A program made the translations under genes and the position numbers. The notes below the pieces were generated by a model that saw only the letters and a list, made by a program, of their open reading frames with translations, made no database searches and had not been told where the DNA came from. Of a DNA stretch of 64,000 bases, positions 13,770 to 25,636 are shown piece after piece. The DNA is taken from contig CANLCX010000002.1 of the NCBI GenBank assembly GCA_947489315.1, forward strand, positions 124,001 to 188,000, given 5' to 3'. Every line of letters begins with the position of its first letter. The stretch's first letter is position 1. Source of the DNA: an uncultured Sphingomonadaceae bacterium (GTDB taxonomy: Bacteria; Pseudomonadota; Alphaproteobacteria; Sphingomonadales; Sphingomonadaceae).

Positions 13770-14138
13770 TTAAAGAGTATAGGGAACACGAATGCCCGGC
13801 ATTTCCGCCGGAAAATCGCGCGTGTTTCGTGTGATCAGGATGCGCCCGGTAAGCTGGGCAGAGGCAAGAATGACAGCGTCCATGGTTTTCAGCCGCCGCC
13901 GGTCGCTGCGCAGCAAGGCAGCGCGCCGACCGATTTCTTCATTGACCTCAATGACATTGAAAAAGGAGAGAAACGCCTCCGCCCGGTCGCCATCATCCGG
14001 TAACGCGCGCGTCAGCACTTCAACCCAGGTCAGGCGGCTGATATAGCGGCGGTCATAGCGCTGCAGCTCGACATTGGCGCGGCCAACATCGTTAAGCGCG
14101 TCAAACAGGATGTTGCTGTCGAATACCGCTTCGTTCAC
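13770..14138 (-). CDS. vapC: VapC-like PIN-domain toxin
   Basis: A 122-residue PIN-domain ribonuclease. The acidic metal ligands of the family are visible: FDSNILFD at the N-terminus, WVEVLTRA near residue 38, KTMDAVILASA near 86 and the late LITRNTRDF near 103. Toxins of this type cleave tRNA or rRNA when freed from antitoxin. Its start overlaps the antitoxin stop by four bases. By eye the pair is GC-richer than neighbouring genes, and it sits in the middle of a glmU-glmS gene run, both signs of horizontal acquisition. No key residue seems to be missing. Confidence 0.88.
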   Translation of the reverse strand: MNEAVFDSNILFDALNDVGRANVELQRYDRRYISRLTWVEVLTRALPDDGDRAEAFLSFFNVIEVNEEIGRRAALLRSDRRRLKTMDAVILASAQLTGRILITRNTRDFPAEMPGIRVPYTL

Positions 14139-14467
14139 GAGGCGCCCTTCATGCGATAGCGCTCGGCCTCGCGGTCATCATTAGCGTCGAAAAGGTCGGG
14201 AAATTCCTTGCGCACATCCCAGTAATCAGGGTCCCAGGGCCGCGTCCACGACGCCCGCTCGCGCCGCTGCCAGGCAACCGGATCGCCGACATCGCGGCGG
14301 TCGCGCCAGATACCGAAATATTTCTCGATTCCCTGCTTGGAGGCATCCGCCCGAAACGCCGCTACCGCGTCACGAAGCAATTGCGCCCGCGACGTCCCCT
14401 GCGCCGCCGCCTGTGCGTCGAGCCACTGGACATCTTCTTCTGATAAATCGGCGAGTATGCGAGTCAT
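14135..14467 (-). CDS. vapB: Ribbon-helix-helix antitoxin of the VapBC pair
   Basis: A 110-residue protein. Residues 1-40 (MTRILADLSEEDVQWLDAQA, then SRAQLLRDAVAAF) read as a ribbon-helix-helix DNA-binding domain of the CopG type. The charged, Trp- and Asp-rich C-terminal half would bind the toxin. No Shine-Dalgarno sequence precedes the ATG and palindromes begin eight bases upstream, which suggests a very short leader or leaderless message repressed by its own product. It is paired with vapC by an ATGA overlap. Confidence 0.85.
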   Translation of the reverse strand: MTRILADLSEEDVQWLDAQAAAQGTSRAQLLRDAVAAFRADASKQGIEKYFGIWRDRRDVGDPVAWQRRERASWTRPWDPDYWDVRKEFPDLFDANDDREAERYRMKGAS

Positions 14468-14474
14468 GATATAG

Positions 14475-14497
14475 TGATATCATATCATGATATCATG
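14475..14497. promoter_or_regulatory. Palindromic operator of the vapBC pair
   Basis: Two perfect TGATATCA palindromes stand at 14475-14482 and 14488-14495, the second extended to the 12-base CATGATATCATG. Their 13-base centre spacing puts them on nearly the same DNA face. They end eight bases from the antitoxin ATG. Such tandem sites are typical of ribbon-helix-helix autorepression; the match of protein and site is inferred. Confidence 0.65.
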
Positions 14498-15389
14498 TCA
14501 ATCTCCGTTTCAAGTCTTCCCGCTCTGATGCGGCACGAGGAAGACCGATGTCCCAGACAAGACCTATTTTTCCCAGACCGGAGATAACCCACCATGCAGG
14601 ATCGGATTGACCAGCTTCGATACCAATTCGAGCCGATTCTGGAAAAGCATGATGATTGTTGTGCCAGCATTCGCCGTAGGTCAGCCAACCTAGGCCGGGT
14701 AGATTGGAGGCTTGGACTGATGCCTTTTGAACATCCCAACGCCCATTGCCAGGGCGATGACAAAAATAGGTGATCGTCCAATGCCCAGCCACACTGAAAA
14801 TAATACGTACAAATATTCCCCAAATGACCCACGGCAACCCTCCGATGGCGAACAAAATCAGCGCCAAAGGCAACTGGTGCCAGCGCCATGTATTTTCCAG
14901 AAACTGGTAAAATTTATCCTTCGCGATATTCTCTTCAATCGCAAACTTTGGTGGCCTGTCGAACTCGAACCGATAGAATAACTGCCAAGTCAGATCTCTT
15001 ACTAGGGATTTTCTATGAGCGAAAAAGTCGTGACATACAGACTGGCGTTGAGCCCAATCACGGATGTCATGAACATATAATATGCCGTGGGGACCAGCCA
15101 CCCCGACCAATGTACCGAGATATATCAACGATCTCTCTAAAGATTTGGAGCAAGCGAATGTTCGGTGGATCATCATCCGATGCATCCCAACGCTATGCCC
15201 CAATAACAGCGATACATATGTCAGGATCAGGAACATCAAAAATGCTCCCATGGTGAAGAAAGGGATGGCCAACGTCAGGGTGAGAAGTAGCATGGAACCA
15301 TTCCATAGCGTCTTCTTCGCATCAAACATGAGTCGCCCCAATTCGGCAGATGCGGATGATCCATCCACCCGGATTACCGGTTCCATCAT
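14493..15389 (-). CDS. Acyl-lipid/acyl-CoA fatty acid desaturase
   Basis: A 298-residue membrane di-iron desaturase with four hydrophobic segments (about residues 25-70 and 160-200). Histidine box 1 is HSVGMH near residue 60 and box 3 is WHNNHHAFP near 235. The second box is unusual: instead of HRXHH there is RQSVCHDFFAHR near 110. It probably adds a double bond to membrane acyl chains. I take the ATG at 15389 (or 15386), since upstream codons run into the glmU stop, although no ribosome site is evident. It lies between glmU and vapB on the same strand. Confidence 0.8.
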   Translation of the reverse strand: MMEPVIRVDGSSASAELGRLMFDAKKTLWNGSMLLLTLTLAIPFFTMGAFLMFLILTYVSLLLGHSVGMHRMMIHRTFACSKSLERSLIYLGTLVGVAGPHGILYVHDIRDWAQRQSVCHDFFAHRKSLVRDLTWQLFYRFEFDRPPKFAIEENIAKDKFYQFLENTWRWHQLPLALILFAIGGLPWVIWGIFVRIIFSVAGHWTITYFCHRPGNGRWDVQKASVQASNLPGLGWLTYGECWHNNHHAFPESARIGIEAGQSDPAWWVISGLGKIGLVWDIGLPRAASEREDLKRRLT

Positions 15390-15396
15390 AGCAGGA

Positions 15397-16749
15397 CTAA
15401 GACTTCCCCGCCTTCTTCTTCGCACTCACCGCATTAAACCGATCCGCCCAACCCTTTTTCGCGGTCTGTTCCGCCCGCACCAGCGCCAGGTCGCCAGCCT
15501 CAACATCCTTGGTGAGCACTGCGCCAGCGCCGACAATCGCGCCATCGCCAATTATCACCGGCGCCACCAGGGCGCTGTTGCTGCCGATGAAGGCACCCTT
15601 GCCGATCTTCGTCCTATATTTAAAATAGCCGTCATAATTGCAGGTGATTGTGCCTGCGCCGATATTGGCGCCCTCGCCCACTTCGGCATCGCCCAGATAG
15701 GTCAGATGATTGGCCTTGGCGCCCTTGCCCAGCACCGCCTTTTTCATTTCTACAAAATTACCGACCTTGGAGCCTTCTTCCAGCACCGCACCAGAGCGAA
15801 GCCGCGCGAAGGGACCGACATTGGTATCGGGACCGATTGTTGCCCCTTCAATATGACTTTGGCCGTAAATTTTTGCGCCGCTGGCGATCGTGACACCAGG
15901 GCCAAAAATGACATTAGGTTCTACGACAACATCTGAAGATATTTCTGTATCATATGAAAACCAAACGGTTTCTGGTGCAATCAGGCTAACGCCATCCGCC
16001 ATTGCCTTTGCTCTGCGACGCCCTTGCCATTCGCTTTCGACCGCAGCCAGTTCCGACCGGCTATTCACGCCGGCAACCTCGGCTGGATCATCCACTTCAA
16101 TCACGGCGCTTTGCTGACCCGGCAACATGACAATATCCGGCAGATAATATTCGCCCGCCGCGTTATCATTGCTGATCTGGTCAAGCAAAATGAACAAATC
16201 GGTCGAGCGCGCCGCCATCAGGCCGCTATTGCACAGATTGACCGCTCGTTCCTGCTCATTGGCATCTTTAAACTCTACCATTTTTTCGATTTCGCCCTGA
16301 TCATCGGCGATGATCCGGCCATAGGCGCCGGCGTCATCGGGGCGGAAACCCAGCACAACCGCACGCGGATCGGACCCGTTATTCAGGCGAAAAATCATCT
16401 CCTGCATCGTCGCGGCGCTAACCATCGGAACATCACCGTAAAGGATGAGCACATCACCAGCGAAGCCTTTCAGCGCATCATGGGCCTGCGCGACCGCATG
16501 GCCGGTGCCCAATTGATCGTCCTGCACGGCAATGGCGACATTGCGCCCTTCAACGCTCGCCTCAATCTGCTCGCGCCGCGCACCAACGACCACAACCGTG
16601 CGCTCGACACCAATAGAATCAACCGTATCGAGTAAATGATGAAGCATGGGCTTCCCGGCAATCGGATGCAGCACCTTGTGCGTCTCCGATTTCATCCGTG
16701 TGCCTTGTCCGGCGGCTAATATAATGGCTGCTAAAGGACGATCACTCAT
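15397..16749 (-). CDS. glmU: Bifunctional N-acetylglucosamine-1-phosphate uridyltransferase / glucosamine-1-phosphate acetyltransferase
   Basis: GlmU acetylates glucosamine 1-phosphate and then makes UDP-GlcNAc. The N-terminal uridyltransferase has ILAAGQGTRMKS at residues 9-20 and LHPIAGKPM next. From about residue 250 there is a left-handed beta-helix of hexapeptide repeats (IGPDTNVGPFARLR, GEGANIGAGTITCNYDG) for the acetyltransferase. The ATG at 16749 gives 450 residues and the normal N-terminus; the frame is open to 16815. In many relatives glmS directly follows, but here a desaturase and a toxin-antitoxin pair intervene. Confidence 0.97.
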   Translation of the reverse strand: MSDRPLAAIILAAGQGTRMKSETHKVLHPIAGKPMLHHLLDTVDSIGVERTVVVVGARREQIEASVEGRNVAIAVQDDQLGTGHAVAQAHDALKGFAGDVLILYGDVPMVSAATMQEMIFRLNNGSDPRAVVLGFRPDDAGAYGRIIADDQGEIEKMVEFKDANEQERAVNLCNSGLMAARSTDLFILLDQISNDNAAGEYYLPDIVMLPGQQSAVIEVDDPAEVAGVNSRSELAAVESEWQGRRRAKAMADGVSLIAPETVWFSYDTEISSDVVVEPNVIFGPGVTIASGAKIYGQSHIEGATIGPDTNVGPFARLRSGAVLEEGSKVGNFVEMKKAVLGKGAKANHLTYLGDAEVGEGANIGAGTITCNYDGYFKYRTKIGKGAFIGSNSALVAPVIIGDGAIVGAGAVLTKDVEAGDLALVRAEQTAKKGWADRFNAVSAKKKAGKS

Positions 16750-16845
16750 GCCACAAAACTCCGAATATATGTTCACTACGCTGAATTTGCGCCCCATGCC
16801 ATGATGCGGTTGCATATGCCAGCCAGATCGGTTCTATGCATGTTT

Positions 16846-17532
16846 ATGACAGAAATATCTTTCGAAATCATCGGCTTTGATCTGGACGGCACCTTGCTCG
16901 ACACCAGCATGGAACTGGCCGCCTCGCTCAATCATGCCCTCGACAGCGCTGGTCGGCCTCAGGTCGATGCAAAATCCGTGCGATCGCTAGTCGGCATGGG
17001 TGCACGACATATGCTGGAAATGGCGCTGGAACAGTCTGGCAGCAGTGACAAAGAGATGGTCAAGGGCCTAATGCCGGTGTTGATCGACCATTATGAGGCC
17101 AATCTCGGTAAAAACGCACCTGCATTTGCTGGACTGCTCCAAGCCATGGACGCACTGCAGGATCAGGGTATCAAACTGGCTGTTGTTACCAATAAATTCG
17201 AAAGCCTGGCAGTGAAGCTGCTCACCAACGTCGGCATGGTCGATCGCTTCGTCACCGTCATCGGAGGCGATACCATGGGCAAAGGGCGCAGCAAGCCCGA
17301 GCGCGATCCGATTGACGAGATGATCCGGCGCTGTGGTGGCGTAGTGGACCAAACGCCCGCGGCTTTTATTGGCGACAGTATATTCGACATTAAAGCAGCG
17401 CAAAATGCCGGTATTGCCAATGTTGCGGTAAGTTTCGGCTTTCTGCATCAGCCTGTCGAGGAACTAGGCGCCGATGCGATTATTGATCATTATGACGAGC
17501 TTATGCCGACCTTGATCAAATTGGCGCGCTAG
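16846..17532 (+). CDS. gph: Phosphoglycolate phosphatase
   Basis: A 228-residue HAD-superfamily hydrolase. The nucleophile motif FDLDGTLLDTS lies near residue 9, motif II in VVTNKFES near 105, and the acid motif GDSIFDIKAAQNAG near 170. The cap domain between motifs I and II is of the C1 helical kind found in Gph, which hydrolyses 2-phosphoglycolate from oxygenase reactions and DNA repair. The open frame extends to 16801, but the ATG at 16846 begins the family-like N-terminus; no ribosome site separates the options. It is divergent from glmU and convergent with the nucleotidyltransferase gene, whose stop is three bases away. Confidence 0.88.
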   Translation: MTEISFEIIGFDLDGTLLDTSMELAASLNHALDSAGRPQVDAKSVRSLVGMGARHMLEMALEQSGSSDKEMVKGLMPVLIDHYEANLGKNAPAFAGLLQAMDALQDQGIKLAVVTNKFESLAVKLLTNVGMVDRFVTVIGGDTMGKGRSKPERDPIDEMIRRCGGVVDQTPAAFIGDSIFDIKAAQNAGIANVAVSFGFLHQPVEELGADAIIDHYDELMPTLIKLAR

Positions 17533-17535
17533 CGA

Positions 17536-18555
17536 TCATCCCTTGCGCCACTTTGTCCATAAATGGCGAGTGAGCATAAGCGGCGGCATTCTTAACCAAT
17601 GGGAACGGATATAGAAGGCTTGCCGTGTGAACTTTCGATTTTCCCGGCCCCACCCGTCTCTTGCTAACAGACGGCGAACGTAAAGAAAATCGGCAAACTT
17701 GGCCTTACCCGCGCGACCTTCACAAACAGGCGTGCCATATAGCCGAGCAGCCATTCGCAGCGCGCGCTTAAGATGCCGTTCCAGTTGGTGTAATTTGGCG
17801 CGCGTGCCCAATTTCGTCCAAAAATCTTCCTCTTGCTCGGCAAATTGCCGCACCAGCCGATCAATATCCCACAAGTTGCGCAATCCCCCCGCCAAGTCAC
17901 CATCAGCAAAAAGATGCGCAATCGAGTGGAGCAGCATATCAGCCGGCGCCATCACGTAGAGGTCAGAATCCAGCTTAACTGCAGCATTTAACATCGCACT
18001 GGCATTGGGCGTGGGCGCGGCGGTCAGCGGCAAAGTCGTATGATGCACATCGATCATCCGATCCCGCTCCCGGTGGATCAGCGGCGGCAGCTCATGCATA
18101 TGATCGCGGTAATATTGATCGTCATAAGGGTCCGGTTTCACCCATTCCCAGCCGGCGTCCAACAATAGTTCTTCGACAGCGGGCAACTGATCCCGTGCGA
18201 CCATGATATCAAGATCGCCAATGCTCCGTCCAATGCCCGCATCGAGATTCGCTGCGACATAGGCGGTGCCTTTCATCAACACCGTCTTACAGTTTAGTGG
18301 TGCAAGAGCACGACGCGCACTATCCGCCTCCCAAATCGCTTGTTGTCGAGCAAGGTCAGTGGCTTGAATCGCATCCTTCAGAATTGGTTCAACCTGTACT
18401 GGAACCTCAATATCTGCCAAGCGATGTGCCAAACTGCCGATTAGCGACTCCGCCCGGGCAATACTGATGAGGTCCGTCCACCCTGCCCCGTCAAGCGCAA
18501 GAACCGTATCTGGCGCACGAAGAGCATCCACCAGAGATTGAGCATTGTGCATCAT
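17536..18555 (-). CDS. Nucleotidyltransferase-family protein of the HPr-rel-A cassette
   Basis: A 339-residue protein of the uncharacterised nucleotidyltransferase group (NTP_transf_5 type). The fold is suggested by LMKGTAYVAANL near residue 88 and DLDIMVARDQLPAVEELL near 115, with the paired acidic residues of a nucleotidyltransferase site, and DVHHTT near 168. Related enzymes occur in lasso-peptide and PqqD-containing peptide clusters beside HprK-like kinases, where they may modify a phosphorylated peptide. The substrate here is unknown. The ATG overlaps the kinase stop (ATGA), and another ATG is one codon downstream. It is the last gene of the cassette. Confidence 0.85.
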   Translation of the reverse strand: MMHNAQSLVDALRAPDTVLALDGAGWTDLISIARAESLIGSLAHRLADIEVPVQVEPILKDAIQATDLARQQAIWEADSARRALAPLNCKTVLMKGTAYVAANLDAGIGRSIGDLDIMVARDQLPAVEELLLDAGWEWVKPDPYDDQYYRDHMHELPPLIHRERDRMIDVHHTTLPLTAAPTPNASAMLNAAVKLDSDLYVMAPADMLLHSIAHLFADGDLAGGLRNLWDIDRLVRQFAEQEEDFWTKLGTRAKLHQLERHLKRALRMAARLYGTPVCEGRAGKAKFADFLYVRRLLARDGWGRENRKFTRQAFYIRSHWLRMPPLMLTRHLWTKWRKG

Positions 18556-19421
18556 GACAGCTCGCTCCAGAGGCCATCGATCAGCTCTTCCGCCTGAGCC
18601 CCCGATTGATAGTCCATTGCCTTAACCGCAACCGTATCAACAAACTTGGTCAGTGCACGAAAGCCCGTCTCGCCCAGAGCAACATAATTGGTCGATGCTT
18701 GCGTCAAGCGCACAAAAATCTCGCTCTTCCCCATATCGCGCAGTGCGGGATCATAGCCGAAACGCGGAAATAACAGCAAGGCTGGCTTCGCGGTGCTCGC
18801 CATCTTGTTAACCGAATCCAACGGCGGAACGATATGACGAATGTCGCCTTTGGGCGTATCCTTCATCAACGGACCAAACCGGTTATCAGGCACAATTGCT
18901 TGCATAGCTGCAATTGCCTCATTTTTCAGACTGATAAGGCGCGGAAAGCTGTGCACCATGCCCGTATCAGGGTTAAGCAATGCAAATTCATCGCCCATGA
19001 ATCGCCAGCCTTTTTCGGCGAGCATTGCGGATAACGTTGATTTGCCCGAACCGGACAGCCCGGTCATCAGCAAGGCCTTGCCGTCTTTTTCCACACTGCT
19101 GGCATGCAACAAAAGGTGCCGGCGCCAACCCAAAGCCATTTGCAGGTTCATCCCCATTTCAGCTGCCAATAAGCTTTGGTTCAGCGGTAACGGCGCAGCA
19201 TCGGGTAACCAATAGTCACCCGAAATATGGACCGATGGCCGTATATAGCGCCGCCATGGCTTCTCAGGCTCCAATCGGACCGTAAAATCCGCATAACCAT
19301 CTTGCGATGCAGGATAGTCCTTATACAGCGCCGCCAATTGATCCAGAGGTTGTCGCCAAGTCGAAGCAACTCGGAATCGTGCGGGGCCGACGGCTAGATA
19401 TAGATGATGAAGCTGCGCCAC
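18552..19421 (-). CDS. HprK-related kinase A
   Basis: A 289-residue relative of HPr kinase/phosphorylase C-terminal domains. It has a P-loop GLSGSGKST near residue 127 preceded by LLHASSVEKDGKALL, a Walker-B-like WRFMGDEFALL near 148 and RLISLKN near 168, the pattern of peptide kinases of the HPr-rel-A type. Lasso-cluster relatives phosphorylate a serine of a precursor peptide; no HPr is encoded nearby. I chose the GTG at 19421, five bases after the PqqD-like stop, because QLHHLYLAVGPARFRV is the expected N-terminus. A GTG at 19457 would overlap the upstream gene by 31 bases. It is coupled to the nucleotidyltransferase gene. Confidence 0.9.
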   Translation of the reverse strand: MAQLHHLYLAVGPARFRVASTWRQPLDQLAALYKDYPASQDGYADFTVRLEPEKPWRRYIRPSVHISGDYWLPDAAPLPLNQSLLAAEMGMNLQMALGWRRHLLLHASSVEKDGKALLMTGLSGSGKSTLSAMLAEKGWRFMGDEFALLNPDTGMVHSFPRLISLKNEAIAAMQAIVPDNRFGPLMKDTPKGDIRHIVPPLDSVNKMASTAKPALLLFPRFGYDPALRDMGKSEIFVRLTQASTNYVALGETGFRALTKFVDTVAVKAMDYQSGAQAEELIDGLWSELS

Positions 19422-19426
19422 CTGCC

Positions 19427-19705
19427 CTAAACCTGTTCCACAAGACCAAGCGAACACAGCTCAACCAGCCTTGCCAGCACGATATCAGCTGCATCAACGG
19501 TATCTTCCAAATCAAAGCTGGAGGAGAGCCGCTGCGCGACATCAGCAGCAGTCAATATATCCTCAGCCATAGCCTCGATTATCGCTGGTACCGGATCAGC
19601 AACCATATGCGTGATCCCTGATGATCTCTGGAAAATCAGAGTCATGCTGTCCAGCGGATGCTGGATTAGCCCATCAGGGGCTGTGGCGCGATAAAGTTGG
19701 CTCAT
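19427..19705 (-). CDS. PqqD-like peptide chaperone, HPr-rel-A system
   Basis: A 92-residue single-domain PqqD relative with the small winged-helix recognition-element fold that binds leader peptides of ribosomally made, modified peptides. The typical pattern is present: a beta-strand rich N-terminus (LIQHPLDSMTLIFQRSSGITH), then helices with PAIIEAMAE and a C-terminal LVELCSLGLVEQV. It precedes the kinase gene by five bases. A partner peptide is therefore expected. No radical-SAM or B/C lasso enzyme is encoded, so it should present a substrate to the kinase and nucleotidyltransferase. Confidence 0.87.
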   Translation of the reverse strand: MSQLYRATAPDGLIQHPLDSMTLIFQRSSGITHMVADPVPAIIEAMAEDILTAADVAQRLSSSFDLEDTVDAADIVLARLVELCSLGLVEQV

Positions 19706-19813
19706 TTTCGGTTACACTATTCCTGATCAAGGCAAGTCATTCAAAACAAGCCCGTCTGGTAGCATGAATATGTTAATAAGCGTTGGCTTTGAAGCCGAAA
19801 ATCAACGCACTGC

Positions 19814-20242
19814 CTATCGCGGCATTTGCAAGGAGGCGTAACAAGTAAAACCGCTTTGTCCGGACTGCAGTCGACGGATATAATTCACATAAGCCTTGGA
19901 CTGGTCGTATGATGTACCGGGCAAGGACCGACCATTCATCGCGCGCTTCACTTCTTCACCAGTAAAATTGCGGCCAGCAGGTGGGAATGCACCTGGTGTG
20001 TCAGGTGATACGATTTTGCCGTCAGGACCGATAAAACCGCCCGCAGCGTGATTGCCGGGTACTGGTATCTCACAATTGAGAACAGAACCGGCAGTTTGCG
20101 CCAAAGCTGGTTTGATGCTGACAATAGCGGAAGCTGTTACTGCACCCATCATCAAGGCCCGACGGCGCGTTACGATAGAGGCATTCTTAGAACCATCGGT
20201 GGATTCTAAAGACTTATCATTCTGATTTAAACTGTAGGTCAT
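19814..20242 (-). CDS. Exported protein upstream of the HPr-rel-A genes, candidate substrate
   Basis: A 142-residue protein I do not recognise. A polar N-terminus of about 25 residues is followed by TRRRALMMGAVTASAI, a Tat-like twin-arginine signal, and cleavage is likely after PALA near residue 48. The mature part of about 95 residues has two cysteines (LNCEIPVP and the late FTCYAS) and many Gly, Pro and Ser, and ends in LQMPR. It is the first gene before the PqqD-like gene, 108 bases upstream, in the same direction. Its ribosome site AGAGGAAA is about nine bases from the ATG and is part of an inverted repeat. That it is the cassette's substrate is inference from position only. Confidence 0.6.
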   Translation of the reverse strand: MTYSLNQNDKSLESTDGSKNASIVTRRRALMMGAVTASAIVSIKPALAQTAGSVLNCEIPVPGNHAAGGFIGPDGKIVSPDTPGAFPPAGRNFTGEEVKRAMNGRSLPGTSYDQSKAYVNYIRRLQSGQSGFTCYASLQMPR

Positions 20243-20251
20243 TGCGCAAAA

Positions 20252-20282
20252 TTTCCTCTATATTTCGTCCTTAAAGAGGAAA
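20252..20282 (-). promoter_or_regulatory. Hairpin over the ribosome-binding site of the exported-protein gene
   Basis: TTTCCTCT and AGAGGAAA are perfectly complementary and are separated by 15 bases. On the transcript the right arm AGAGGAAA is the Shine-Dalgarno sequence itself, so folding would hide it. It could equally be a DNA operator. The loop contains a second purine-rich AAGGA. Confidence 0.5.
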
Positions 20283-20476
20283 ACGATTAAATGCGAGTAA
20301 ACAGTCTTTGCTAGACTTAGGCGTCCAAAAACGGGACAAAACTGCTAAATTGATTAAGCGGCAGCATGACAAAATGGAGGGAAAAAGGGTGGCGTTTGAA
20401 TTATGGACGATATCATTGCTCTTTTTCCACAAACCCGCGTAAACACCACTGACTGAATTTTAACATAGCTGCAATT

Positions 20477-21709
20477 ATGAACTCGATTTCTCCGTTTCGC
20501 CTGATTTTCGCGATCCTTCTTATCATCGGAGGGTCGGTACTGGCTGCACAAGTGTCAGAAGCGTTGACGAAAATCATCATTATGTCAGCCTTTGGTGTTG
20601 TGGCCCTTGCCGTTGTAGCATTGGAAGATCATGTGGCACCCCAGCCAGACTTTAGTGCCTTGGAACGTCAAAAAAAACGACTGTTGTATCAAGGGCGAGC
20701 TGAGGCCTATCAGGATGTCATCGACCCGATTACCGATCCGATACTATTGATTCGCAACGCAAAAGTTGCAGCCGCAAACCCGGCAGCGAGCAATTTCCTG
20801 GGCAATCACATCATTGGCGAAGATGTACGGGTCGCTATCCGGCATCCAGCGGCGGCTGACCGGCTCGCCAATCCAAATGCCGAGCATACGGGAGAACCGA
20901 TATTATTGGTGGGCGTCGGCAGCGCAAATCAAAGATGGGAACTGCGGATTCACACGCTGAATGACGGATTGAAGCTCGTGCAATTATCCGATCAAAGTAG
21001 CCGTTATGCAGCCGAACGTATGCGCACCGATTTTGTTGCCAACGCTAGCCATGAGTTGCGCACCCCTCTCGCCGCTATCAAAGGCTTTATAGAAACACTG
21101 GAAAACCCTGAAGCAGGTAAAGACGAAAAGACCCGCGTCCGTTTTCTACAGATTATGTATCAGGAAGCTGATCGCATGCAGCGACTAGTCGAAGACTTAA
21201 TGTCTTTGTCTCGAATTGAGGCTGAAAAATATCAACTGCCGTCAGAGCCCGTCGACCTTGCAGCATTGGTTGCTGACGTTAAGGGCGACTTTCTTAACGG
21301 ACGATCAAAGAAGGACCACGATTTTCAGACGTCATTGCCCGATAATATTCCGATGGTTCAGGGAGATTATGCGCAATTATCCCAATTGCTGCATAATTTG
21401 GTTAGCAACGCTTACAAATACGGACATCGCGGCACGCCGATATCGGTTAGCATAGAGCCCAACCGAAACGGATCCATGTTGCGCCTGTCGGTCACCGATC
21501 AAGGCGACGGAATAGCACCCGAACATATTCCTCGGCTAACGGAACGCTTTTATCGCGTAGATAAGGGGCGTAGCAAATCTATCGGAGGCACCGGACTGGG
21601 TTTGGCCATCGTCAAACATATAACGGAACGGCACGGCGGGCGTATGGAAGTGAACAGCGAATTGGACATCGGCACTAGCGTATCGATATTTCTGCCGGTT
21701 ATAAAATAG
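20477..21709 (+). CDS. phoR: Phosphate-regulon sensor histidine kinase PhoR
   Basis: A 410-residue membrane histidine kinase. Two transmembrane helices occupy about residues 8-25 and 30-48, a PAS-like region lies at about 75-165, the phosphoacceptor His is in ASHELRTPLAAIKGF near residue 192, and the ATPase has the N box (LHNLVSNAYKYG near 312) and G boxes (DQGDGIAPEH, GGTGLGLAIV). It senses phosphate limitation through PstSCAB and PhoU and phosphorylates PhoB. It leads the phosphate cluster while phoB ends it. Its start lacks a strong ribosome site. The last 150 bases before pstS hold tandem Pho boxes. Confidence 0.93.
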   Translation: MNSISPFRLIFAILLIIGGSVLAAQVSEALTKIIIMSAFGVVALAVVALEDHVAPQPDFSALERQKKRLLYQGRAEAYQDVIDPITDPILLIRNAKVAAANPAASNFLGNHIIGEDVRVAIRHPAAADRLANPNAEHTGEPILLVGVGSANQRWELRIHTLNDGLKLVQLSDQSSRYAAERMRTDFVANASHELRTPLAAIKGFIETLENPEAGKDEKTRVRFLQIMYQEADRMQRLVEDLMSLSRIEAEKYQLPSEPVDLAALVADVKGDFLNGRSKKDHDFQTSLPDNIPMVQGDYAQLSQLLHNLVSNAYKYGHRGTPISVSIEPNRNGSMLRLSVTDQGDGIAPEHIPRLTERFYRVDKGRSKSIGGTGLGLAIVKHITERHGGRMEVNSELDIGTSVSIFLPVIK

Positions 21710-21733
21710 CCTAGCGATGCCGATGACGGGCAC

Positions 21734-21762
21734 TTGTCACATATCTGTCATAAATATGTAAC
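21734..21762 (+). promoter_or_regulatory. Tandem Pho boxes of the pst operon
   Basis: Three seven-base units, TTGTCAC (21734), CTGTCAT (21745) and ATGTAAC (21756), stand exactly 11 bases apart, matching the PhoB direct-repeat rule; the middle unit is the consensus. TATTAG just after could be the -10. This marks the PhoB-activated promoter of pstS onwards. Confidence 0.88.
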
Positions 21763-21861
21763 TATTAGGACACTGGCCACTTTTAAACCGTGCCCAGCAA
21801 GCCAATTATCCGAATCGATTCTTGGCCGATATTTCAACACTCCATAGAAAACGGGGATATA

Positions 21862-22908
21862 ATGATGTTCAAGAAAATCGCTCTTCTGGCGGTATCTACA
21901 CTCGCCTTGGCAGCATGCCAGGACCAAGCTTCTGGCGGACAAGGCGGAACTCGCAGTGAAATAAGGATCGTTGGTTCTTCGACTGTTTTCCCATTTGCCA
22001 AGGCGGTGGCCGAACAGTTTAGCGCCAGCGGTGAGAACACGTCACCAATTCTAGAATCAACCGGCACCGGCGGCGGAATGAAATTATTCTGCGCGGGCGT
22101 TGGCGCCAACACACCGGATATTGTCAATGCGTCACGGCGGATGAAGGCCACCGAATTTGAGATGTGTAATGGAAATGGCGTAACCGATGTGGTCGAAGTC
22201 CAGATCGGCATTGACGGCATCGCCGTTGCGCAAGCCAATGAAGGACCCTCTATCAAATTGACGCCAACGCAGATTTACGAAGCCATTGCGGAGCGGCCGT
22301 TTGGCAAAAAGAATGAAGCGAAAAACTGGTCTGATATTGATTCTTCACTCCCGAACATTGCGATTAGCGTTTATGGTCCGCCATCGACATCTGGTACCCG
22401 CGATGCGCTGACCGAATTAATCATGGAAGTGGGCTGTAAAACCGACGCTGCGACCAAAGCGCTCAAAGAAACAAACGAAGATGAATATGATGCAATCTGT
22501 CACGATGTCCGCGCTGATGGTGCCTATATCGATGCTGGAGAGAATGATAATCTGATAGTCCAGAAACTGAAGGCCAATCCAAACAGCCTCGGCATTTTTG
22601 GCTATAGCTTCCTGGAAGAAAATACAGACTCCGTCCGCGGCGTCGCCGTTTCCGATGTTGAACCTGCTTATGACGCGATTGCATCTGGTGAATATCCAGG
22701 CGCCCGCCCGCTCTATATCTATGCCAAGAAGCAGCATGTTAATGTTATTCCCGGTCTGCAAGAATATCTAACCGAATTCGTGAGTGCCGGCGGGAAAGAT
22801 GGCTATCTTGTGAAAGCTGGCCTGATTGCCTCACCTGATGATATTCGCACACAAATGGGCGCGGCTGCAAAAGACCTCCCAACCCTAACCGGTACCGAAC
22901 TGAAATAA
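21862..22908 (+). CDS. pstS: Phosphate ABC transporter, substrate-binding lipoprotein
   Basis: A 348-residue PstS-family protein that binds phosphate in the periplasm. It starts with a lipoprotein signal (lipobox LALAAC, Cys19) and has the phosphate-binding loops IRIVGSSTVFPFAKA near residue 38 and STGTGGGMKLFC near 68. GPPSTSGTRD near residue 175 is the second ligand segment. The ATG at 21862 follows GGGGATATA; the open frame begins earlier at 21790. It lies directly after the Pho boxes and is separated from pstC by a strong hairpin, as expected for a product needed in excess. Confidence 0.96.
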   Translation: MMFKKIALLAVSTLALAACQDQASGGQGGTRSEIRIVGSSTVFPFAKAVAEQFSASGENTSPILESTGTGGGMKLFCAGVGANTPDIVNASRRMKATEFEMCNGNGVTDVVEVQIGIDGIAVAQANEGPSIKLTPTQIYEAIAERPFGKKNEAKNWSDIDSSLPNIAISVYGPPSTSGTRDALTELIMEVGCKTDAATKALKETNEDEYDAICHDVRADGAYIDAGENDNLIVQKLKANPNSLGIFGYSFLEENTDSVRGVAVSDVEPAYDAIASGEYPGARPLYIYAKKQHVNVIPGLQEYLTEFVSAGGKDGYLVKAGLIASPDDIRTQMGAAAKDLPTLTGTELK

Positions 22909-22916
22909 TTATCTAT

Positions 22917-22955
22917 CGGAATGCGGTCTGTTATTTTAAGGCAGTCCGCATTCCG
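22917..22955 (+). other. Stem-loop between pstS and pstC
   Basis: CGGAATGCGG (22917-22926) pairs perfectly with CCGCATTCCG (22946-22955), and after one mismatch CTG/CAG continue the stem round an 11-base loop. No T-run follows, so it is not an intrinsic terminator. A 3'-end stabiliser for pstS message is the likeliest role. Confidence 0.7.
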
Positions 22956-22992
22956 ATCTACATATTCCTAACCAAGGATCAGTTATTTTACC

Positions 22993-24375
22993 GTGACAGG
23001 CTCTATTCTCTTCCTGCTGATCATTGTCCTTGGCGGCATTGCTTGGTTTTTTGGTCGCGTTAAAGCGAGAGGCTTTTCCGCGACCAACACAAAAAGGGGA
23101 GCCGTTCATTCGCTTCCCACTTATCACGGCTGGTATGTTGCCCTTTGGGCAATCGGCCCTGCCCTTTTGTTCCTTATTGTCTGGAACATCGCCAGCCCAG
23201 CCCTGATCACCGACGCGGCGCTAGCTAGTCCTGCGGCAGAGCAGCTTCCCTCAGATCAGTTTGCACGCGGTGCAATATTAGCAGAAGCGCGGTCGATCGC
23301 ATCGGGACAGCAAGTCAGAGCGTTTAATCCTCTCTCCCAATCCATGGTCGAACCCTATAGGACAGCCATTTCCTATTATCAGATGATAGGCATGGTTGCC
23401 GCTCTGCTGTTGGTCTTTGCTTGCGGCGTTTTTGCTTGGTTGCGGCTAAAGCCCGAACTTAGAGCGCGTACGAAAATTGAACGTATCACCATGATGACGC
23501 TGCTTCTCGCATCGCTTATCGCTACAATAACAACCGTCGGCATATTTGCCTCGCTTATATTCGAATCAGCAAGATTCTTTTCGATGGTATCTCCGATAGA
23601 CTTTTTGTTCGGAACCGAATGGAATCCCAAAGCCGTTGCTGGGCCACGCGGAGAAACCGGCTTTGGCGCCATTCCGTTATTTTGGGGCACTGTATTTATA
23701 GGTGCAATCATTGCGATGATTGTAGCCATCCCTTTGGGTTTAATGAGCGCAATTTATCTTACTCAATATGCTGCACCTGGTTTCCGGGCTTGGATGAAAC
23801 CAATATTGGAGGTTCTCGCTGGAGTTCCGACAGTTGTTTATGGGTATTTTGCGGCATTGACTGTCGCGCCTGCTTTGCGGGACTTTGCGGTTTCGATTGG
23901 TATTTCCGGAGCTTCTTCGGAATCGGCGCTGGCAGCGGGTGTCGTTATGGGTATCATGATCATCCCGTTTGTATCTTCAATGGCGGATGACAGTATCGCT
24001 GCTGTTCCGAGCGCGATGCGCGATGGATCACTTGCCATGGGAGCCACAAAAAGCGAAACCATCAAGAAAGTACTTATCCCGGCGGCACTCCCAGGCGTCG
24101 TTGGCGGGGTATTGCTAGCTGTCAGTCGTGCGATTGGCGAGACTATGATCGTCGTTATGGCGGCGGGTCTAGCTGCCAATATGACTGCCAACCCTTTCTC
24201 AAGCGTAACAACTGTAACCACCCAAATCGTCCAGTTGCTGACCGGAGATCAAGAATTTGACAGTCCCAAAACCCTTGCTGCTTTTGCACTGGGATTGGTT
24301 TTGTTCATTGTGACTTTGCTGCTCAACTTGATCGCTCTCAGGGTCGTCAAAAAATATCGGGAAGCTTATGAATAG
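22993..24375 (+). CDS. pstC: Phosphate ABC transporter, permease subunit PstC
   Basis: A 460-residue inner-membrane permease of the PstSCAB system. The C-terminal half holds the MetI-like permease fold with the ATPase-contact loop RAIGETMIVVMAAG near residue 380. The N-terminal extension of about 150 residues with a periplasmic loop makes it longer than E. coli PstC (about 320), which is normal in alphaproteobacteria. The gene begins with GTG after the intergenic stem-loop. Its end overlaps the pstA start by eight bases. Confidence 0.93.
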   Translation: MTGSILFLLIIVLGGIAWFFGRVKARGFSATNTKRGAVHSLPTYHGWYVALWAIGPALLFLIVWNIASPALITDAALASPAAEQLPSDQFARGAILAEARSIASGQQVRAFNPLSQSMVEPYRTAISYYQMIGMVAALLLVFACGVFAWLRLKPELRARTKIERITMMTLLLASLIATITTVGIFASLIFESARFFSMVSPIDFLFGTEWNPKAVAGPRGETGFGAIPLFWGTVFIGAIIAMIVAIPLGLMSAIYLTQYAAPGFRAWMKPILEVLAGVPTVVYGYFAALTVAPALRDFAVSIGISGASSESALAAGVVMGIMIIPFVSSMADDSIAAVPSAMRDGSLAMGATKSETIKKVLIPAALPGVVGGVLLAVSRAIGETMIVVMAAGLAANMTANPFSSVTTVTTQIVQLLTGDQEFDSPKTLAAFALGLVLFIVTLLLNLIALRVVKKYREAYE

Positions 24376-25636
24376 CACCGCGGCCTTTGTAGAAGAGCGC
24401 AATCCAACCGATTGGCAGGGCGATGCAATGCAAAAACGCATCCGTAAGCGCTATGCATCTGAACGGAGGTTCAAGGCGCTGGGCCTTGGCGCGATTATTT
24501 TATCCGCAAGTTTTCTCGCCTTCCTGCTCATCGTGATGGTTGGCAATGGTTTCCGCGGCTTTACCCAGACCGAACTTCCGGTTGAGATTGATTTTCCCGC
24601 CATGACGGGCGGCGCTTCTGCAAGCCAGTTTGAAGGTGCCAATGCGGTAGCGAACGTGAGAACACTAGGCGTGCGGGACATCGTAAATACCAGTGTTCAA
24701 ATCCAATATGGAGAGCAAGGCACAGAGCTGTTTTCAGCTGGCAGTTGGCAAACTGTTCAATCAGAAATTCTTGATAATCCGGACATCGTTACATCTAAAG
24801 CTACGCTCTACCTCCCCGTGGAATCCGAAATTGATGTTGCCTATAAAGGCGACGGCAGTGCTTCGGCTGAGGAAAAAGTTGCTGAATTGGAGGGAAAACT
24901 CAGCACGGGTTTCAACTCGAATTTCCTTTTCAATTCGGATGCCACAGATCCCATGCAAGTAGGAATATGGGGGGCGCTCAAAGGGTCGCTGATCACGATG
25001 TTCATAACATTGCTTATCGCCTTTCCCGTTGGTGTTTTGTCCGCTCTTTATCTCGAAGAATATGCGCCCAAAAATCGCTTCACTGATTTGATAGAGGTTT
25101 CAATCAACAACCTTGCGGCCGTCCCGTCAATCATCTTCGGTTTGCTCGGCCTTGCCGTTTTTCTCAATCTATTTGGATTGCCGCGATCTGCAGCTTTGGT
25201 CGGCGGCCTCACACTTGCGCTCATGACTATGCCTGTGATTGTGATTTCGGGGCGTAACGCAGTGAAAGCTGTGCCGCCATCTATTCGCGAAGCAGCATTA
25301 GGAATTGGTGCCAGCCAAATGCAAGTCGTGTTTCATCACGTCTTGCCGCTCGCACTACCGGGCATTCTGACCGGTACCATTATTGGTATGGCCCGCGCCT
25401 TGGGCGAAACCGCGCCCTTGCTGATGATTGGCATGCGGGCCTTTATCGCGACACCGCCTGGCGGAATTGTCGAGCCGGCAACCGTGCTCCCTGTCCAGAT
25501 TTTTCTCTGGTCTGACGAGGTCAATCGCGGCTTTGTCGAAAAAACCTCAGCTGCCATTATCGTGTTGCTCTTGTTCCTTCTCACTATGAACGCTCTTGCG
25601 ATATATTTACGCAATCGTTTCGAAACCCGCTGGTAG
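24368..25636 (+). CDS. pstA: Phosphate ABC transporter, permease subunit PstA
   Basis: A 422-residue permease partner of PstC. The N-terminal 190 residues form the DUF3333-type domain seen in alphaproteobacterial PstA, with one transmembrane segment (about 38-60) and a periplasmic region. The MetI-like part follows, with the coupling loop [15 protein letters not shown] near residue 340. Start overlaps the pstC stop by eight bases, so translation is coupled. The pstB gene follows after eight bases. Confidence 0.93.

Follow-up and report, generated by a model that had tools for sequence, protein, structure and literature searches.

A conserved four-gene module in Sphingomonadaceae that joins HPr-rel-A enzymes to a Tat-signal protein as their candidate substrate

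The window analysed here is a stretch of 64,000 nucleotides from contig CANLCX010000002.1 of an uncultured Sphingomonadaceae bacterium, in which an earlier note, made from the sequence alone, had described a compact unit of four minus-strand genes containing a new candidate substrate for modification. All four open reading frames (ORFs) were verified on the minus strand at 17536-20242, and three of them matched the families that the note had named: a nucleotidyltransferase (NTP_transf_5; 17536..18555; PF14907, 2.8e-48, 165.1 bits), an HprK-related kinase A (18552..19457; TIGR04352, 244.8 bits against a cut-off of 200) and a predicted PqqD-like leader-binding protein (19427..19705; TIGR04353, 48.1 bits against a cut-off of 35). 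The fourth gene (19814..20242), recognized by its ORF and by family comparison, encodes a 142-residue protein with a twin-arginine translocation (Tat) signal, here termed the Tat protein, which is the proposed substrate. The kinase stop codon overlaps the nucleotidyltransferase start codon as ATGA, which fits a co-translated unit; an in-frame GTG at 19421, right past the PqqD-like stop, is the likely start of the kinase and reads as a better candidate than 19457. The four-gene set exceeds chance because its genes recur together across the family.

Since their scores lie above both curated cut-offs, the kinase and the PqqD-like protein fall within the HPr-rel-A system of NCBIfam, in which the latter is a PqqD-family peptide chaperone (the PqqD-like protein has no Pfam match at E<=1, the more specific NCBIfam model being the one that matches). 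The view that the whole system is undescribed therefore holds in part: these two components already have a name, and the novelty is the substrate class. The Tat protein has no Pfam or NCBIfam match at E<=1, and no family reached its cut-off among ten relatives scanned against NCBIfam and Pfam or nine further relatives scanned against Pfam, the protein at locus L175 giving weak NCBIfam Tat-signal matches under the cut-off.

Alignment indicated that both enzymes have intact active-site residues. In the kinase, H118, K139, D156 and E157 (numbered from 19457) are invariant in 121/121 aligned sequences; the residue after D156 is Glu157, in contrast to the His-Lys-Asp-Asp motif given for lasso kinases in PMC9266682, a comparison made by motif description rather than with an aligned lasso kinase. 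In the nucleotidyltransferase, D114 and D116 are present in 116/116 aligned sequences and D169 in 115/116. Its structure model (mean predicted local distance difference test score, pLDDT, 87.6) points to a nucleotidyltransferase fold: three MenT1 chains alone match it at E<=0.001, ANT(2'') and LnuA scoring more weakly. Compared with the sequences of solved structures, the nucleotidyltransferase had no match and the kinase had weak ones only, the best being UvrA (E 0.0052), with HPrK at E 0.35. A separate nucleotidyltransferase, 29% identical to that of the window, was seen beside glmU (L315:9671-10468) in a genome without a kinase above the cut-off.

The Tat protein was matched in all 31 other genomes searched from the window's genus (in G007 as two pieces, in G008 with one stop) and in 34/60 relatives in total. 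The Tat gene is broken, by an in-frame stop or into two pieces, in L081, L106, L029 and G007, possibly through decay or sequencing error. Searching the genome collection with the Tat protein identified 47 loci, and at 41 of them tblastn detected its three partner genes on the same strand; L075 has the PqqD-like gene as its only partner because the contig ends there, and five Sphingopyxis loci (L101-L105) have none of the three alongside. Across 199 family genomes, the kinase was above its cut-off in 61, the Tat profile matched in 61 and both were present in 60, the singletons being G153 (kinase only) and G172 (Tat only, a weak match of 2.3e-5); the Fisher test of this co-occurrence ignores phylogeny. 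Within six genera that mix positive and negative genomes (g43, g57, g65, g72, g75, g90) the Tat gene and the kinase change together, with the exception of the weak G172 match. The two genes are linked on the same strand in 57 of the 60 genomes that hold both, with 283-1618 nucleotides from match to match, and are split in three (G095, G097, G176). The expectation that relatives keep the upstream gene next to the enzymes is thus borne out in most kinase-bearing genomes of the family, the departures including these three genomes, the kinase-only G153 and three of 71 kinase loci outside the family, which are without the gene.

The chromosomal site of the module offers a second line of comparison. 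Its usual place in the family is between phoR/pstS and gph/glmU. When this site was sought in 12 kinase-negative relatives using glmU as the anchor, seven (L312, L313, L318, L320-L323) had gph directly adjoining phoR and all four genes were undetected, a joint absence that fits either loss in these relatives or gain elsewhere. In Sphingopyxis the Tat gene lies beside phoR at all five of L101-L105, and Sphingopyxis-type loci L218, L264-L267 and L326 have the enzymes next to gph and glmU; beside the enzymes of L268, both of these flanks went undetected. The break point in this arrangement is between the Tat gene and the PqqD-like gene. We considered whether the Sphingopyxis Tat genes are unrelated to the enzymes, and this was ruled out, since all five genomes carry a kinase above the cut-off elsewhere. 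For the three split genomes noted above, both halves were seen at split sites in G176 and the Tat half in G097, while G095 is broken differently: the Tat and PqqD-like genes lie beside phoR (L324), and a separate contig (L176) carries the kinase together with the nucleotidyltransferase. Enzymes found without the upstream gene had been named in the earlier note as evidence against its proposal; in these three genomes and the five of Sphingopyxis the two halves are both present, but apart. The positions of the Sphingopyxis-type halves, on the phoR and gph/glmU sides, suggest that an ancestral module broke and that both halves stayed, and their retention after separation argues for joint work in trans, so that the split loci may serve as natural experiments on the cooperation of enzymes and substrate.

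The Tat-type leader of the window protein (residues 26-49, RRRALMMGAVTASAIVSIKPALAQ, 20096..20167, minus strand) has the predicted features of a Tat substrate, namely a twin arginine (RR), after it a hydrophobic stretch free of charged residues, and an A-x-A-like site, with a Lys directly before the PALA site. R27, L30, G33, P45, A46, A48 and Q49 are invariant in an alignment of 42 sequences. Outside the family, the leaders of RR-signal proteins found beside the kinase (cargoes) have the consensus RRxLLKGxxxxxPxxxTLxSxxAxA (48 aligned). In a five-fold test with sequences held out by 60% identity groups, 59/66 held-out leaders outscored even the highest of 30 ordinary-Tat control loci, with a median of 30.75 bits versus 4.0 in the controls and a control maximum of 17.5; the controls were 30 of 67 matches, taken from four cassette-bearing genomes. 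By this sequence measure, the RR-proteins beside the kinase share more than the plain Tat motif, and their leader is an unusual one of Tat type.

Conservation also extends to the C-terminus of the Tat protein. In the 42 aligned sequences S53, C57, Y118, Y121, S130, T133, C134 and S137 are invariant, which answers positively the question of whether its Ser, Tyr and Cys residues are conserved, and 14/21 positions are invariant between residues 117 and 137. The conserved tail (residues 130-142, SGFTCYASLQMPR, 19817..19855, minus strand) contains a C-x-x-S motif, Cys134-Ser137, whose invariant Ser137 (codon 19832..19834, minus strand) is the proposed phospho-acceptor. In the structure model, residues 71-120 are of moderate confidence (block means 76-85) and the tail has pLDDT values nearly all below 50, which, at a mean of 57.4 for the whole model, does no more than suggest flexibility. 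Among non-redundant mature cargoes (45% identity, so that related cargoes are not fully independent), C-x-x-S occurs in 56/67 versus 19.7 in shuffles, and in 48/59 versus 18.3 outside the family. The motif lies near the C-terminus in 67 of 110 cargoes (42/42 in the family), elsewhere in 32, mostly near the mature N-terminus, and is absent by the signal cut in 11. At L170 and L238, read by eye, Ala replaces Cys and Ser is kept in a similar C-terminal context, making Ser the likelier target. C-x6-S is enriched too, owing to a cargo type with C[ST]xSGxxSGN. This second type, seen outside the family (for example at L154, L162, L175, L230-L237, L239, L241, L244-L249, L252, L254), carries such a motif right behind the signal, and in many cases a Cys and an SPGxW-like segment come next; those members that were scanned have no family above the cut-off.

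The kinase loci examined, 120 in all, were a chosen subset of the kinase search matches and G037. Few genomes of the window's class carry the kinase (9/337 at E<=1e-30, including the window's own genome and one family member); it is commoner in a sample of the phylum (61/398, 13 of these in the window's order) and in the class of G847 (41/369). An RR-signal protein was assigned at 68/71 outside loci, usually 170-600 nucleotides upstream of the kinase, although at L146 it lies downstream of the enzymes and at L197 about 1.6 kb upstream. These assignments combine an automatic filter that has no null expectation with hand choices: cargoes missed by the RR filter were assigned by hand at L146, L154, L155, L174, L180, L238, L242, L251, L253 and L255, and others were picked by length at L158, L236, L237 and L246, L204 being cut by the contig end with no RR in view. 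No adjacent cargo was counted at L218, at L264-L268 or at L225-L229, which are short duplicates, even though the filter had picked up unrelated ORFs at some of these loci.

The module is statistically, not mechanistically, tied to the XrtA exopolysaccharide system. XrtA was above its cut-off in 56/61 cassette genomes versus 73/138 others of the 199 family genomes, and in 29/31 versus 33/63 when one genome was taken per genus (94 genera); in the window's genome XrtA and the module share a contig, some 81 kb apart. The scan of neighbouring ORFs covered 26 outside loci, with a single ORF at each except L162 and L164, which had two, and a further ORF at the family locus L176. Neighbours at 10/26 outside loci, including the cargo-less L164, had an XrtA/PEP-CTERM-system family above the cut-off, and the L176 neighbour had none. 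Part of these ORFs were picked by eye; of 20 picked by rule, 19 were scanned and six were above the cut-off. L164 sits among XrtA genes, L171 lies beside a sugar-epimerase-like gene, and an exosortase-A-associated putative O-glycosylation ligase (TIGR03097) is encoded near a cassette at L259:9757-11001.

The likeness to lasso peptide tailoring proposed in the earlier note proved right for the enzyme types. According to a review, PadeK phosphorylates the C-terminal Ser of a lasso precursor, several phosphates are added by ThcoK and by the Sphingobium enzyme SyanK, and knock-outs connect PsmK with phosphorylation and PsmN, an annotated nucleotidyltransferase, with a hexose on the phosphorylated Ser, leaving room for true nucleotidylation and later action of a host glycosyltransferase (PMC9266682); in a rumen survey, lasso clusters are reported together with HPr kinase, PqqD and an uncharacterized nucleotidyltransferase (PMC7533575). 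In these precedents, enzyme types of this kind already act on a peptide C-terminal Ser. Lasso tailoring (PadeK/ThcoK/SyanK/PsmK, PsmN, B1) and the window module thus share an HprK-like kinase, a nucleotidyltransferase, a PqqD-like leader binder and a candidate Ser near the C-terminus. They differ in that the window's candidate substrate is a 142-residue Tat-signal protein whose conserved Ser is not terminal but has five further residues behind it. No lasso B2 protease or C cyclase was found among 13 window proteins scanned against Pfam (13770-25636), in agreement with the earlier note, the rest of the genome not having been searched for them. Our literature search, whose coverage lacks most subscription journals, returned no published account of the module, only papers on lasso peptides, mycofactocin and the mining of ribosomally synthesized and post-translationally modified peptides (RiPPs).

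Comparative genomics (the intact and jointly absent module, the retained halves) strongly supports the exported protein as the substrate, as the earlier note had suggested, and we hold it likely that the enzymes would act on it. A protein-modification-and-export module is probably the explanation of the whole. In the scheme that we infer, from the occurrence of the modification through its residue, chemistry and order to the exopolysaccharide tie, the Tat signal of the small protein would double as a leader to which the PqqD-like protein binds; this binder would hand the Tat protein over to the enzymes and might delay its export. The HprK-type kinase would then phosphorylate a serine, most likely Ser137 of C-x-x-S in the predicted flexible tail, although the chance that this residue is the acceptor is about even. 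The nucleotidyltransferase might extend that phosphate with a nucleotide, or with a sugar as in pseudomycoidin, and the finished protein would reach the periplasm via Tat. Leader conservation among the cargoes fits the RiPP definition of a ribosomal precursor with a leader, modification and leader removal being putative. TorD, DmsD and NapD are proofreading chaperones of Tat signals. By analogy, a small cytoplasmic protein would here bind a specific Tat signal during cargo finishing, but it belongs to another sequence family, and the proposed finishing is phosphorylation plus nucleotidyl or sugar transfer. If this scheme is correct, the named but substrate-less HPr-rel-A enzymes would gain a concrete substrate class, a candidate acceptor in Ser137 and a mechanism, HprK-type peptide tailoring would extend from lasso peptides to Tat-exported proteins, and a post-translational pathway would be linked, statistically, to the XrtA exopolysaccharide system. 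A bolder version, conceivable but doubtful, is a widespread undescribed tagging pathway whose signal peptide would serve at once for Tat export and as a RiPP-type leader. In it, the PqqD-like proofreader would delay export until a sugar or nucleotide is joined through phosphate to the Ser of C-x-x-S, and the protein so tagged would anchor or prime XrtA-associated exopolysaccharide.

Several observations weigh against modification and export of the Tat protein as the function of the module. The predicted modification is read from genes. At five of the 12 kinase-negative relatives, phoR was not found nearby and the site was not assessable. Outside the family, L163, L164 and L171 have a kinase with no detected PqqD-like or Tat gene; the PqqD-like profile is also silent at six loci that do have a cargo (L174, L175, L177-L180), a 93-residue ORF occupying the PqqD-like gene's place at L174, and so the parallel absence at the three loci is not clean. 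C-x-x-S is missing by the signal cut from 11/67 non-redundant cargoes (from L174 through the cut alone), and its position near the mature N-terminus in the other cargo type leaves a single acceptor site for all cargoes unsupported. No structural match was found for the model of the Tat protein, whose confidence is low (mean pLDDT 57.4). Lastly, the outside-family leader profile misses the window protein (E=18; absent at E<=10). The same profile finds family intermediates such as L185 (E 1.9e-7), but of the 67 family cargoes among its best 400 rows only 17 have E<=1; the outside leader was accordingly dropped as a direct probe, and the window leader appears to be a derived form whose kinship to outside leaders is claimed via such intermediates only.

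The same data were weighed against other explanations. Co-occurrence and the split loci show dependence but do not establish a substrate role, and the Tat protein could be an unmodified, exported partner or binder for a product that the enzymes make on another molecule; with the PqqD-like family named as a peptide chaperone and the cargo leader more uniform than ordinary Tat signals, we regard this as unlikely. It is very unlikely that the module is a phosphate-starvation regulatory unit, its HprK-like kinase/phosphatase being tied to the adjoining phoR-pst genes: in the family it does adjoin phoR and mostly pstS, but seven of the 12 module-less relatives retain phoR, pstS and gph at the site, and outside the family the module is often found among XrtA genes.

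The fixed spacing of C-x-x-S would suit a lanthionine-like chemistry in which Ser is phosphorylated or nucleotidylated, eliminated and then attacked by the Cys, yet no lyase or cyclase was seen among the four module and nine flanking proteins scanned, and the Ala at the Cys position in L170 and L238 makes this proposal hard to credit. Hardest to believe is a toxin-like role for the nucleotidyltransferase, with its MenT fold, which would make the whole module a device for defence or a toxin-antitoxin system. MenT1 chains provide its only structural matches at the threshold applied, but ANT(2'') and LnuA, with weaker scores, have the same general fold, and the module also encodes the HprK-related kinase, the PqqD-like leader binder and the exported Tat protein, at a chromosomal site that is fixed in the family. 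Modification and export of the Tat protein therefore remains the reading that we prefer.

Regarding its surroundings, the module is flanked by gph (16801-17532, plus strand), past which lies glmU, and by phoR (20477-21709, plus strand), past which lie pstS and two permease genes; the domains of these flanking proteins come from a Pfam scan, and we take the names gph, phoR, glmU and pstS to be the appropriate ones. The divergent intergenic region from the module to phoR (20243..20476), delimited by the ORF layout, presumably holds the module promoter; the scan upstream of the module gave weak promoter-like sites only (6 versus 3.4 in shuffles) and was uninformative, as was the count of terminator-like sites (1 versus 3.5 in shuffles). 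A hairpin between the Tat gene and the PqqD-like gene was considered and rejected, the fold being no better than shuffles (z -0.34). Further along the window, a minus-strand gene at 13770-14467 encodes a PIN-domain protein (PF01850) with an overlapping 110-residue ORF before it, an arrangement that resembles a VapBC-type toxin-antitoxin pair and of which the PIN domain is the confirmed part.

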